NCBI RefSeq assembly: GCF_000341285.1
Contig: NW_005178475.1
Location: forward strand, 62,001 to 126,000
From: Galdieria sulphuraria
Lineage: Eukaryota; Rhodophyta; Bangiophyceae; Galdieriales; Galdieriaceae
Reading direction: 5' to 3'
Length of the DNA stretch: 64,000 nucleotides
In this document: piece after piece, positions 1 to 11,260 of the stretch
Layout of the letters: each line of letters begins with the position of its first letter
Numbering within the stretch: the first letter of the stretch is position 1
The notes under the pieces: model-generated
Seen by the model: the letters and a program-made list of their open reading frames with translations, nothing else
Databases searched by the model: none
What the model was told of the DNA's origin: nothing
Made by a program: the position numbers and the translations under genes

Positions 1-1328
1 TCTACTTCATCGGTAACATTATTTTACTGCTTCGTCTTCATTTTGTGAATCTTGCAAGTCTTCAATGAAATGCTGCTTACTCTTGTATTGTTAAGATCCT
101 CTCCCCTAAGACCAGCGTGAGAAGATCCAACTTTCATTATCAACATCAAAATGTCCTTTCGTATCTCATTTTGTCTCTTTCGGGGTCATGGCCTCTTTCA
201 ATTCACTATCATGTCGAAAATTTCAAACCTCTTGCCATGACATAATTTTACATTTTTCGAAATCCTTCAAGGAGATAGGAGATTTACTTCTCACTCCAAT
301 GCTATTAAATAGTATCTTTTCTAGTGTTTGATGGTCTTCATTTCAATTTTTCAATTTAACGTTAACTTTCAAGGAAAAGATGGCTTGAGGCTTTTCTTCT
401 CTTTCCATGTTGGAAGGAATTTTTTTCACGAAGTTTATGTATCCGCGCAATCGAAAACTCACCAACCAGCTTCATTGGTGTTGGAAAGCAAGCAAGTATC
501 TGCCTTCGAGTAACATTCGTACTAAGGGAACTTTTTCATTTGACGGATTCAAAATAAACATCTACTGAATTAGCCATACCGTTGATAGTCTCATAAACAA
601 GTTGATAAGAAAAGTGGCATGCTCTTCGGTTGAAGTATTCGTTTATAACCATTATCCTGTTCCATTTGACGTTAGATAGTACCCTCAGAAAAAGTGATCA
701 AATGTTGGCATGTAAGAACAGCAAGTTGCCACTGAACACTTCTTATCTTTGATTGATTGAATAGGCTTTGAATCAACAAGACACTTCGCATAAGAATTCA
801 ATGAATTACGACATCTAGTGCTTTTCTACAAGAAAAATGTGCACACTTGAAAAATTATGGCAATTGACAATAGAGTGGATCTTTACTGATGTACAATTAT
901 TCCCAAATATTTTCAACGGAGCAGAAAAGCAACCACCGCTAATAACAACGAAGCCGGCAGTCACGCTTTCGACATTTCAAGCTTGTCCGCTATCTTGATT
1001 CCAAATGCCACGTTCTTCTACAAAGATTTCGACTTGGAAAACCATAAATAAGTACGTTCAGTGATTCTCTATGTCATCCACTAGATACAGCATACATGTC
1101 TTTTTTCGAACATACAAAAATAAACAACGCCAGTTCTCTATCTTTCACGAATTTCTTTATTTTCTTTAGTATGAGAGGTCTTTGCAAAGCTTGTACATTC
1201 TTCATTAGCTCAGTACGCAATTACAGAACAAAGTATTTTCATTCAAGAGAATTGGTCATGTTACAAAACAAAATGGAATACAAAAACTATTCAAAAACTC
1301 GTCCAGGCTGAGTGTCTTGAAAGTGGTT
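1..1328. other. Left-edge region without a clear gene
   Basis: No intact gene is recognised here. Two short plus-strand ORFs (328-513 and 1096-1311) have no family resemblance and look like chance. On the minus strand, roughly 30-240, short stretches read in an acidic, coding-like way (for example a segment ending in QNEDEAVK followed by a stop near 30-35), but they are separated by stops. They could be small exons of a gene running off the left edge, or decay. Base composition is AT-rich like the other intergenic DNA of the window. Confidence 0.4.
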
Positions 1329-2545
1329 TTAAAATTCTAAACTTTCTTCCCATTTTCGAAGATATACACAATTGACAGGAGATATAACACCATCAATGGA
1401 ACAACTCTAAAATATTTATGACATTCAAGTTTTCCTTCGAGAAGCTCTCGAACTTACCTTATATACAGGACAGATACCACAAGGGACCTCTCCAAGTGTT
1501 GCAAAGGGTGAGGTATGACTAAATTCCTTTATCAAACTTGTCTGTTTCGAGGCTTTATCACTTACTGACAGTAACGATATACTGTAGTTGATTTTTCAAG
1601 GTCGGTACCTTTACATATCCTTTCTATAACTCCATCATAAATCATGGTTTGTAAGAGACTTTCAAAGTCTTTGATCTAAAAGTGATCGTGATATTTATAT
1701 GTAGCTTAGCGGAACAAATAATACAACAAACCTCTAGTTTTTCTTTGGATATACCCAAAGATGTGATATAATTCGCTACTTCCTCAACTGCAACACCTGT
1801 GGAACTTCCACGAATAAACCGCAAAGACTGTTGATACAACACATCGAAAAATTCTGCATCGAATTCCTGATTGTAATACCAAGGACCACCCGTAACATCA
1901 ATCGAAGGTTCTAAGTCAAAGAGCATATAAAGCTAAAAAGGCTTGAAATGTTACTCTCGGTATTTGAAGATAATAATACCCTACCTTCTTGTTCTTCGAC
2001 TTGACAGATTTGAATGGCTTTACAAGTTTCTTCAACTCCAAGTTTTTTAAGATTTTCGTCAACTGAGTCTGCTGCAGTCGACTAATGTTTCTCAAGTCTC
2101 TAATTTACCAATTAGCAACATCAAAGTACCGATTGATATCTTTATACCTTGTCCATATTCCTTTATTTCCAGCTTCTTCGACGTGGCTATACACCAAACG
2201 TTCTTCTGTTGACAATCCTTGCAGTTTATTGGCAACCTGTTCCTCGACCTTGGAACATGAAGTGATGATTTATATAAAAGTTTGACGAAACATACTGCTT
2301 GATAGAAAAGTTTGCCGTGAAGTTTCTTTAATTGGAGTCTTCCACGTTGCAACAGATTGTTATATGTTTGCAACCTTTCGTTTGGAGAGATATTTTCAGG
2401 TAGGCTCTTTCTAACCTCTTCGTCGGTGACACCTAGCCACTAGAGTTTCTTAAAAGTAGGTACATAACTCTCGGAACTAACCATGTGGTCCTACTGAAGC
2501 TACTCGTAAAACTATTTCTTCCAGCTTCGTCGTATCTGTTGCCAT
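1329..2545 (-). CDS. RPC34: RNA polymerase III subunit RPC34 (RPC6/POLR3F family)
   Basis: This eight-exon gene encodes about 288 aa. Exons read on the minus strand: 2545-2482, 2432-2296, 2248-2148, 2099-1985, 1932-1732, 1675-1566, 1518-1458 and 1406-1329, with introns of 44-59 nt. The product is the RPC34 subunit of the RPC82-RPC34-RPC31 heterotrimer, which helps Pol III open promoters in the nucleus. The order matches the family: tandem winged helices (N-terminal VTDEEV region, then EEAGNKGIWTRD), the hallmark VTGGPWYYNQEFD, and a C-terminal PCGICPVY...SC...NC cysteine set that holds an Fe-S cluster in homologues. The protein ends WEESLEF, close to the WLEF end of animal RPC34. The start (ATGGCAACA) gives a short acidic N-terminus and is the only ATG that reads into the first winged helix through a plausible intron. 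Identification is secure; the border of exon 7 is the least certain. Confidence 0.9.
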
Positions 2546-3007
2546 GAAAGGGAATGTAAATACCAAAAACTGTATTAGATGCAAAAAGGACTGCCCATAT
2601 ATATCCGAAATTAAAAATCATTTCACCCAAGTATCTGACTACAAAGGAAACTGAAACAGCCTTTTATGAATTATGCACCTGCAAGGAAGTGCATAAAAAG
2701 AATATTCATAAATATTACGAACGTGGGTTTTTTCGAATAGTTGATTCCAGTTATTCTACGAAGACGAGATTCATTCACGGAGAAATAGCATTTCGACTTT
2801 GTTTCGCGAAAGTCGCTCCATGAACTGGATAATTCAGTCTATACAAGGTAAAACAGTATACTCTTAGTAATAAGAATTACTTTACACCAGTTTCCAAGAC
2901 CAAATAAATCTTCCTTTTGCATGGATGGAACTTTACTTTTCAACTCAAGCTTTGAAAAGGATCATCTCCATTTTGGAATGAATGTGGCCACGCTTTCCCA
3001 AAATTGA

Positions 3008-3856
3008 ATGCAAAGAGTGCTTGGTTTTTCTACTTGCAGCTATAGTTGGATAGCTCAAAGTTTCAACCGCTTCCACCCTCGTTGTATTCAACCTACTTGT
3101 TTTCGGTCCAAAGTTACCAAACTTTGCCCTAAGCGTCCTCGGTCTTCTCTTCTTTCTGACAACAATGCTACCAAATATCCCCAAAAAGCCATTTATTTAA
3201 CAGCTCAGGTCAAGCTTCCTCAGATTAGCGAAGTGCAAAACGCTACTTTCGATCAATGTTTACCACTGGCTAGAAACATATGTTTCCGCCTACAAGAGGA
3301 GCCCCAGGACGAAAACGCCTATCAAGTGTTAAAGGAATTGTTGTCAAGGGAAGAAGGTGCCAGGGCTTTTTTTGTTGAATATCTTTCTGACTATGAGCTA
3401 AGTCTCCCTGATAAAAAGCCTCCTTTCAAGTAAGTACTTCTTTGCAACAAAGTCATGACAACCTATATTTTTGTTAGGTTAGAGAAGTTACTGAAAGATT
3501 GTGACGAATATGTTCCCAACCTCCTGGCCAGAAATCTTGCAATGTCAGTCGCTAAAGAAGTGGACTTGGCGAACGATTCTAAAAACGCAGAAAACGAGGA
3601 AGTGGACGATACGGGCAGCGGAAGTTGGTCAGATAGTGTTGAAGAAAGTTCTGGAGGTCCTACTATGGTAAAAGAGCGAACAGCATTGCTGATCGATAGT
3701 ATTGCCTCAAGTGAAATTGCTCGGGAACTCGTCGCTCTTTGGTTTTCTATAAGAAGTAGGAAGGGGAAATATGTCCATTTTTTAGAACGCCAAAAATTTA
3801 GAAAGGATCAGCTGGACGTTATCCAAAGAACGCTCGAAGTATTCATTGGTGCTTGA
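3008..3856 (+). CDS. Unknown protein, probably organelle-targeted
   Basis: Two exons (3008-3429 and 3478-3856) joined by a 48-nt GTAAGT...TTAG intron give 266 aa. The first ~60 residues are rich in Ser, Arg, Cys and Lys with almost no acids, as in a plastid or mitochondrial transit peptide. The rest is helical: a segment around residues 80-150 (YQVLKELLSREEGARAFF, then LSDYELSLPDKKPPFKLEKLL), a low-complexity acidic linker around 185-215 (EENEEVDDTGSGSWSD-like), and a basic C-terminal helix. The start is the first ATG of the frame, just after a TGA. I do not recognise the family. The intron restores one continuous frame, so the gene is very probably real. Confidence 0.6.
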
Positions 3857-8453: not shown

Positions 8454-9680
8454 ATGGAGAATGGTTGCTTTTTTCAGTGGTTTCCTGTTGGCAGCCAAAC
8501 GAAGCCAGTGTTTCGTCCTTTCAAGTATGGCTATGGAAGGCTATCTAGGGTTTCTCACTTCTTTCACGGGGTGCCCTATTCTTTGGAACAACGAAACAGA
8601 AGGAAAAAGAGTAGCTATCAAACGAAGCTACTAACGTGTTCGAGGTTTGACAAAATAAATGGAAGGCGTTTATCTGACGTTGTCGAATTGCCTAAAAATA
8701 TGTCGCCAAGGTACGTCGTTTCACAGAATTTTAGGCATATTGTTCTCAGCTGGTTTGATAGTGTTTGCCGTGATACTTTTCTGGAAGCGATGAAAGAAGT
8801 TGGAGGAACAAAGGTTGGTGAAATTAGAAGAGGTCGGATTGTGCAATTTGCGAAGGAAGGTCTATTTATAGATTTGGGTATTGAAAGGATAGCCATTTTA
8901 CCAAGAGAAGAGTTGTGGCTTGAGCGCAACAAAAGTCCTCGTGAACTCTTCAAGGAAGGAGACGAACTCGAAGTAGAAGTTCTGCACCCAAGAGACAATT
9001 TTGACCTTGTCGTTTCAGAGGTTTCCGTTAGAAGACGCAAGTGTTGGAATCGAGTGAGCGAGTTTTATTTCACGTCAAAGAGTTTTCCTGTGTTAGTACT
9101 CGGTTGTAAAAATAATGGCTTGATAGTTCGATATGACTGTATAGAAGGATATCTTCCCATAGAACATCTTATTCCTAGTAAGACTGTAAGTCAAGTTATG
9201 AACACAGAGTTAGAAGTGAAGGTGCTCAGTCTGGAACCAGAAGCGAATAATTTGGTAGTTTCTCAGCGTCTGACTATTACTGAAAAACGCGAGAAAGAGT
9301 TGAACGTTGGAAGCATTGTCAAAGGTGTTGTACGAGCGGTTCGAGATTATGGCGTGGTAGTCGACTTGTATGGTGTTCTCGGTCTTCTTTTCGTCAAGGA
9401 TATTTCTTGCGATCCTGTTGAAGACCCATCAACAGTATTTAGCGTTGGAGAAACAATTCAGTGCATGATTATCCACACTGATAGAAAACGTCATCGTGTT
9501 ATTCTTAGTACCAGAGCTTTAGAGTTACGAAGCGGGGAAATGTTGAAGGACAAAACTAAGGTTTTCGAGAAAAAAAAAGAAGCACTAAAGCGAGTTGGGA
9601 AAATTCTGGAAGAGCGTTCTTCACGTCGCAAATGTTTCTTTGGTAAAACCTTTCCTGTACAGAACATTCAACCAAAATAA
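8454..9680 (+). CDS. S1-domain RNA-binding protein, plastid ribosomal protein S1-like
   Basis: This uninterrupted ORF encodes 408 aa. The first ~80 residues are basic and nearly free of acids (FRPFKYGYGRLSRVS, EQRNRRKKSS), as in a plastid transit peptide. Three S1 OB-fold repeats follow: about 125-195 (VGEIRRGRIVQFAKEGLFID), 205-275 (weaker, NNGLIVRYDCIEGYLP), and 280-355 (VGSIVKGVVRAVRDYGVVVD). The tail is Lys/Arg-rich. Three S1 domains in a targeted protein fit plastid ribosomal protein S1, which helps load mRNA on the 30S subunit; a different S1-type organelle RNA-binding protein remains possible because the middle repeat is diverged. The start is the first ATG of the frame. Confidence 0.7.
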   Translation: MENGCFFQWFPVGSQTKPVFRPFKYGYGRLSRVSHFFHGVPYSLEQRNRRKKSSYQTKLLTCSRFDKINGRRLSDVVELPKNMSPRYVVSQNFRHIVLSWFDSVCRDTFLEAMKEVGGTKVGEIRRGRIVQFAKEGLFIDLGIERIAILPREELWLERNKSPRELFKEGDELEVEVLHPRDNFDLVVSEVSVRRRKCWNRVSEFYFTSKSFPVLVLGCKNNGLIVRYDCIEGYLPIEHLIPSKTVSQVMNTELEVKVLSLEPEANNLVVSQRLTITEKREKELNVGSIVKGVVRAVRDYGVVVDLYGVLGLLFVKDISCDPVEDPSTVFSVGETIQCMIIHTDRKRHRVILSTRALELRSGEMLKDKTKVFEKKKEALKRVGKILEERSSRRKCFFGKTFPVQNIQPK

Positions 9681-9730: not shown

Positions 9731-11260
9731 ATGTCTTATGACGACATAAGAAAGCAGCTGGACTTACTTCTTGGTCCAAATAGAGACGGAGTCCAAAGAG
9801 AGGCACCACCTACGTCGTTTAAAGACCCCCGTGTTTGCAAATACTACCTTTGCGGTGTATGTCCGCACTTACTTTTCTCGAATACCAAAGCAGTAAGTCT
9901 TTCGCAGAAGCTACTAAATCTTTCTTCACCCTTTGTTTAGGACGTAGGACCCTGTGACAAGGTTCACGATGATAATCTTAGGAAACAGTATGAAGATGCA
10001 AGAAGACAAGGAGAGCACTTTGGTTACGAAGAGGAGCTGGAGCGTTTTTGTAAAAAGCTTATATCAGACGTAGATCGACGAATTGAACGCGCCATGAGAC
10101 GACTGCAGGTACAGTATGGTATTGAAAACGAAAAAGCCACGGATTTGTTGGCATACTATCCTGGACCTGGTAGAACTCTGTTGGGAGTTATAGATGAGGA
10201 AGGAAAGGAAGATTTGGAAAAGGGTGTAGGAGGTATGATTGGACAGACCGAGCATTACTATTCTGATCGAGATGACGAGGCTGAAGACGAAGAACTAGAA
10301 TCTCGTTCTGGAGAACAAACAAGAAGCCGCACAAGTTTATCGACAAAGGGAATAAAAATTTTGGCAGTTGACGGAAGCTCCATAGAAAATTCCTCTCAGA
10401 CAGTTCCATCGAATGAACAACATGACAGTAACCAGTCTGTGGAAAAGTTGGAATCAACAGAAGTATCGAATAGAGACGTTCAACCAGGCAGTAAAGACAT
10501 AGACCCTGGCAAGAAACATCATTCTGAGTATACAAACGAAGACGAAAGTTTAGAGCACGAAACGAAAGAAGTTGCAGAATTGAAACAAGATTCAACAACA
10601 AATGTTTTGGGAAAGGAACATTCTACTGCATCGTCAAGTAGCCCTATCTCAGAAGCGGCAGAAGTTTGGAAAGAAGCCAAATCGCCCGATGGTCGCTCAT
10701 ATTGGTATAATGTTGTTACAAGAGAGTCAAGATGGCAGCCTCCTGTTGGCGTTAAGTTAGTGCCAATAGCGTCTGTTCGCTCAACAACATCTGAAGGCAG
10801 CCATAATACAGCCACCAATGATTCACTACTTTCAGGTGATGTTTCTGCGAATCAACAAAAACTAAGAGTTTGTGCAGAATGTGGGGCATTTCTGAGTATT
10901 TTTGATTCCTCACGCAGACTAGTTGATCACTTCAACGGGAAAATGCACATGGGATTTGTTACTTTGAGAAAGAAAGTGAAGGAACTTGAAGAAGACTGTC
11001 ACCGTATGAGAGTGAGTAATAATTCCAGAAATTTTCGGACAAGTAGAAGAAGAGACGACTTTTCTTTGGAGCGTTCTGATTTCCGTCATAGCGAGAGTAG
11101 GCGAAAACGAAGTCACCATTCTCGTTCGCCACAGCACCATCATAGCAAGCGCTATAGAAGTCCAAGTTGTGGAAGCAGTGACGAAGAGAGAATCCGAAGG
11201 AGCTCACATTCTTATCATCATTCACGCAGCTCAGGTTCGCACAGACATCGTTATCGTTGA
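9731..11260 (+). CDS. LUC7-like U1 snRNP splicing factor with an inserted WW domain
   Basis: Two exons (9731-9892 and 9941-11260; 48-nt intron) give 493 aa. The N-terminal MSYDDIRKQLDLLLG and the first, CCCH-type zinc finger (CKYYLCGVCPHLLF...CDKVH, residues ~35-62) are LUC7 hallmarks. The second, C2H2 finger (CAECGAFLSIFD...HFNGKMHMGF, residues ~375-410) is followed by an Arg/Ser/His-rich tail. LUC7 proteins sit in U1 snRNP and stabilise 5' splice-site pairing. Unusually, the region between the fingers is long and acidic and contains a WW domain at about 312-342 (W...DGRSYWYN...SRWQPP). WW domains are known in the U1 protein Prp40, but I know of no standard LUC7 with one. The start is the ATG before the conserved helix. 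Confidence 0.85.

Follow-up and report, generated by a model that had tools for sequence, protein, structure and literature searches.

Results

The analysed stretch of DNA (the window, 64,000 nucleotides of Galdieria sulphuraria contig NW_005178475.1) carries on its forward strand a two-exon gene of the LUC7 family at positions 9731-11260, with an ATG at 9731, a TGA stop ending at 11260 and a product of 493 aa. Exon 1 (9731-9892, 162 nt), recognized by its reading frame and Pfam match, encodes the N-terminus together with C36 and C44, which make up the first half of zinc finger 1, and exon 2 including the stop (9941-11260, 1320 nt) is a single open frame of 439 codons that runs uninterrupted from the second half of this finger to the stop, a WW domain included. 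The intron (9893-9940, 48 nt, GT-AG, phase 0) interrupts zinc finger 1 between C44 and C59; it begins with GTAAGT, ends in TTTAG, holds an in-frame TAG and contains a TACTAAA that is a putative branch point, and upon its removal the junction aligns to yeast Luc7 with no gap. By a crude pattern, 13 intron candidates are found on the forward strand of the window and 12 on the reverse. The open reading frame directly upstream of the gene (8454-9680 of the window, forward strand) displays three S1 RNA-binding domain stretches.

The spliced protein matches the Pfam LUC7 profile (PF03194) at 4.2e-57, with 194.2 bits against a cut-off of 33, in two stretches, one for each finger; the additional zinc finger match reported by Pfam is sub-threshold. 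The first stretch, residues 4-119 (profile positions 1-117), contains CCCH zinc finger 1 (9836-9967, split by the intron), whose C36, C44, C59 and H63 align with yeast C45, C53, C68 and H72, the residues named for finger 1 of yeast Luc7 (PMC5648754), and closes with residues 64-119 (9968-10135), predicted to be helical in a low-confidence single-sequence model. The second stretch, residues 348-416 (10820-11026), gives 8.4e-19 over profile positions 173-241 when the C-terminal part is scanned alone and holds C2H2 zinc finger 2 (C365, C368, H384 and H390), placed by the profile match, by alignment with residues 193-243 of yeast Luc7 and by the invariant columns. A search of PDB chains aligned the two finger regions with yeast Luc7 (5e-23). 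All eight Cys/His positions of the two putative zinc-binding fingers are shared with the yeast protein, although the yeast finger 1 region has been described as a pseudo zinc finger because C45 lies too far away (PMC5648754). The translation ends in a tail rich in Arg, Ser and His (residues 417-493, 11027-11257), with 22 K/R and 21 S among the 79 residues from 415 to 493. Human LUC7L, LUC7L2 and LUC7L3, members of the same family, have RS-type tails, and we know of no WW domain in any of them. A profile search of the genome (12.0 Mb in 102 contigs) found one LUC7 gene, and in human three are described (PMC11732430). On contig C36 of the assembly, the Rubisco large subunit aligns with PDB chain 1bwv along all 493 positions at 5 differences and with 4f0h at more; these chains come from Galdieria partita and G. 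sulphuraria, respectively. Searches with the protein in viral contigs, and with a two-sequence alignment of finger 2 in viral and prokaryotic contigs, confirmed no relative.

Between the fingers the protein departs from its family. The aligned stretches lie 72 residues apart in yeast Luc7 but 246 apart in the Galdieria protein, and the yeast match excludes the WW domain. Profile positions 118-172 (of 246) are unmatched, their place being taken by about 230 acidic, low-complexity residues that hold the WW domain, and when residues 120-359 are scanned alone no LUC7 match is obtained and the WW domain is the sole match above cut-off. Since the family assignment rests on the two finger stretches, the absent middle of the profile is taken as a variant. 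The Ser-rich linker proper (residues 120-290, 10136-10648) has 38 D/E and 17 K/R among its 171 residues, with no LUC7 profile match, and in a structure model of exon 2 (366 aa, single sequence) displays no secondary structure and mostly low pLDDT. It is probably disordered, although this model, with a mean pLDDT of 46.5, lends weak support for disorder only; a long helix that it draws over finger 2 was taken as wrong.

One explanation to weigh is an artefact of the gene model or assembly, in which the WW domain would come from another transcript or from an unspliced segment. We consider this highly improbable. A codon model trained on the other long ORFs of the window (22 before the LUC7 gene was removed) gave the linker (10136-10855) 0.197 bits per codon in the frame of the gene, the best of six. 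The runner-up among the frames reached -0.058, and base shuffles gave -0.396 (s.d. 0.079), so that the linker stands 7.5 s.d. above the shuffles. The last piece (10769-10855) is weak when taken alone (z 1.9, one minus frame being higher), which favors an artefact, but codon usage of the whole linker fits coding sequence and the 439-codon frame is continuous from finger 1 to the stop. Moreover, of the ten frame-keeping GT..AG pairs that would remove the WW domain none is shorter than 200 nt, a count made for donors of the pattern GT[AG][ATG]G only. A LUC7 protein with an internal WW domain thus looks real.

The WW domain itself (residues 297-322, 10667-10744) matches Pfam PF00397 at 9.8e-9, with 35.5 bits against a cut-off of 26.9, over positions 5-31 of the 31 of the profile, and has both tryptophans and the terminal proline. 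Its PDB matches are headed by PRPF40A (2l5f, 1.9e-11, and 8pxw), with yeast Prp40 (1o6w, 6n7p) and TCERG1 among the further ones. An AlphaFold2 model of the 46-aa WW segment alone has three strands and a mean pLDDT of 77, and a Foldseek search with it placed the WW domains of TCERG1 and FBP11/PRPF40A first, with probabilities of 0.97-1.00 for the top five, although none of the 537 matches reached E <= 0.001 (best E 0.012). Judged by these matches and this model, the domain is of the Prp40/TCERG1 type, the closest WW type among PDB chains, and presumably recognizes the same kind of proline ligand. Whereas Prp40, PRPF40A and TCERG1 carry FF domains, the Galdieria protein is a zinc-finger protein in which Pfam finds no FF match at E <= 1. 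The sequence-only reading of this DNA had given the range of the gene and the length of the product exactly as above, and had called a LUC7 protein with both zinc fingers, an acidic stretch in place of the usual linker and, between the fingers, a WW domain; the profile searches support the LUC7 identity, the place of the WW domain and the missing linker part of the profile, and the PDB match to PRPF40A supports a Prp40-like type of the domain.

At least seven WW matches at no fewer than four places were found in the genome: four on C68, the one in LUC7, and others on C17 and C59. In the C68 protein (C68:42500-48500, 1168-2559, forward strand) four WW domains precede two FF matches within a single open frame, and no other FF place turned up in the genome search; the next frame in the 3' direction, probably a further exon, has no Pfam match. 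As its PDB matches mix TCERG1 and Prp40, we name it the WW-FF (Prp40/TCERG1-like) protein. Two WW domains are described for yeast Prp40 and for PRPF40A, against the four seen here. On the minus strand of C17 (locus L019, C17:128000-131500) there is a WW domain downstream of a frame with weak BAR-like matches, and the two may form one gene; none of the four Pfam matches in the BAR-like frame reaches its cut-off. At C59:18000-22000 (locus L020, minus strand, frames 1965-3780) what seems to be a SAC3/GANP-family gene, resembling THP3/LENG8, may include two WW stretches that lie in an upstream frame. Human LENG8, a U1-associated factor, is described with a largely disordered N-terminus, and the main text of the preprint describing it does not contain the term 'WW domain'.

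The LUC7 WW is closest to the first WW of the WW-FF protein: 19 of 27 residues are identical, as are 57 of 81 bases, and this pair has the top off-diagonal score among the ten domains compared (122; next 110). Identities with WW3, WW2 and WW4 are 15, 13 and 11 of 27, and with WW1 of human PRPF40A 15 of 27. The same codon is used at 13 of the 19 residues identical with WW1 (9.1 expected from codon usage) and at 11 of the 15 identical with WW3 (7.4 expected), and since the excess is similar for both the copying of the domain stays undated. Descent from WW1 is the best match for these 27 residues, and is not proven by a domain of that length.

Components of the U1 snRNP, and candidates for them, are present in the genome. 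U1-70K matches its profile on C63 (1.6e-10), and a U1C candidate on C21 (1.5e-7) covers 20 of 38 profile positions; the zf-U1 search also exceeded its cut-off in one control genome, that of E. coli. The Rfam U1 model gave nothing at E <= 0.001 in a whole-genome search in which 41 of 113 candidates were scored. A search with the 11 bases of the U1 5' end returned 18 matches, and an Rfam scan of these 18 preselected loci yielded a U1 snRNA candidate on C37 (locus L036, 1329-1511, minus strand) that covers the model in full length (1-166) with 51.4 bits and E 5.4e-10, below the gathering score of 69.5. Its 5' end reads ATACTTACCTG, and a possible Sm site, AATTTATG, was located by eye.

The branch point protein SF1/BBP is encoded on C20, with matches to SF1-HH and to a BBP-type KH domain, and its C-terminus consists of nine prolines, EDDEL, seven prolines, L and S. 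This double proline tail is a plausible candidate ligand for the WW domain. Runs of at least seven consecutive prolines in some frame are, nevertheless, encoded in at least 18 genomic clusters, a lower bound because simple repeats were skipped in the pattern search; the pattern is symmetrical, so that the reversed version repeats the same matches and is no control. SF1 is one of these clusters and is therefore not singled out. Among the eight inspected, SF1 included, seven lie in an open frame of more than 80 aa.

Discussion

LUC7 proteins aid U1 in the choice of the 5' splice site, and in yeast and mammals Prp40, a separate WW protein, links U1 to the branch point. By homology with its family, the Galdieria LUC7 most likely sits on the U1 snRNP at the 5' splice site. 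Yeast Luc7 forms a trimer with Prp40 and Snu71 (PMC5648754), and the first FF domain of Prp40 binds Luc7 through the motif hydrophobic-[FHL]-x-[KR]-x-[GHL] (PMC2613882). This motif is partly kept in the Galdieria protein, which has FNGKMH where yeast has FLGKIH, N standing where [FHL] is expected.

The sequence-only reading had proposed that a WW domain within LUC7 could join 5' splice site recognition to branch point binding in one subunit. That part is not supported in this form, as the genome encodes a separate WW-FF protein with four WW domains of its own, to which the LUC7 domain adds and which it does not replace. The proposed link to SF1 fared better in part: SF1/BBP of this organism does end in two proline runs, but long runs are common to the 18 clusters and do not point to SF1 alone.

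SF1 is a described partner of Prp40-type WW domains in yeast and mammals (PMC8624252), and the tandem WW domains of PRPF40A bind SF1 proline motifs (PMC11079029). Since WW domains of this type bind SF1 proline tracts, the domain in LUC7 would put one more site for proline binding next to the 5' splice site. We hypothesize, at a probability of about 0.45, that the WW domain held in the acidic linker lets U1 make one more contact in the early spliceosome, to a proline-rich protein, with the two-run tail of SF1/BBP as first candidate ligand, and would thereby reinforce a cross-intron contact that is also open to the four WW domains of the WW-FF protein. The architecture, the WW type, the genes or candidates of the partners and the proline tail of SF1 are observed here, and binding by the domain, the choice of SF1 and any effect on splicing are inferred. 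Against this hypothesis stand the 18 proline clusters, the four WW domains on the WW-FF protein, the partly kept FF1-binding motif and the limited matches of the U1C and U1 snRNA candidates. In yeast, moreover, the Prp40 WW is reported to be dispensable when U1 is recruited co-transcriptionally and during early assembly (work cited in PMC13250567).

The domain may instead be functional with another ligand, such as SF3A1, a further U1 or Sm protein, or a factor of transcription or export, in which case U1 would be tethered elsewhere than at the branch point. The abundance of proline runs in open frames speaks for such a ligand, as does the binding of SF3A1 by the PRPF40A WW domains (PMC11079029), but no specific partner is identified among them and SF1 is a described partner of this WW class; we regard it as rather unlikely, while giving it serious weight.

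Because four WW domains stay on the WW-FF protein, the fifth, that of LUC7, may be redundant, and the domain could be an insertion that the disordered linker tolerates and that does little or nothing. Its position in low-complexity sequence, unstructured in the low-confidence model, is consistent with this, and so are the 8 of 27 residues that differ from the closest genomic WW. Against it, the domain scores over its curated cut-off and has kept the two tryptophans as well as the terminal prolines, and we consider this explanation improbable. It is still less probable that the domain acts within or between U1 proteins, by autoinhibition or by competition with the WW-FF protein for a ligand. 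A precedent exists in PRPF40A, in which a WW domain is inhibited intramolecularly by the proline-rich N-terminal region (PMC11079029), but the LUC7 sequence has no long proline run and few prolines around its WW domain (six in residues 120-290 and one in 328-355).

Returning to the extra contact between U1 and SF1/BBP, a bolder version of it may be conceived, doubtful as we find it, in which a WW domain copied from the WW-FF protein became the core of a rebuilt LUC7 linker. U1 would then carry five WW domains on two neighboring subunits that together grip the double proline tail of SF1, and bridging across the intron would have been rewired in this lineage specifically.

Among the open-access papers listed for LUC7 together with WW domains or domain architecture, none is presented as describing a WW-bearing LUC7, a result that concerns the literature and not the frequency of the architecture among eukaryotes, and no paper there treats Galdieria together with LUC7. 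Likewise, the main text of the paper on the Galdieria spliceosome (PMC5880011) contains neither 'WW domain' nor 'Prp40'. We thus place the protein in the LUC7 family, as a variant whose linker has an architecture that we have not seen described. G. sulphuraria is reported to have 13,245 introns along with the full set of five snRNAs; its relative Cyanidioschyzon has 27 introns and apparently lacks the U1 snRNA (PMC5880011; PMC8831791). Galdieria, intron-rich against an intron-poor relative, is accordingly a good setting for a test, and a working WW domain in LUC7 would, if true, mean that a second U1 subunit can come to carry a duplicate of the link between U1 and the branch point.
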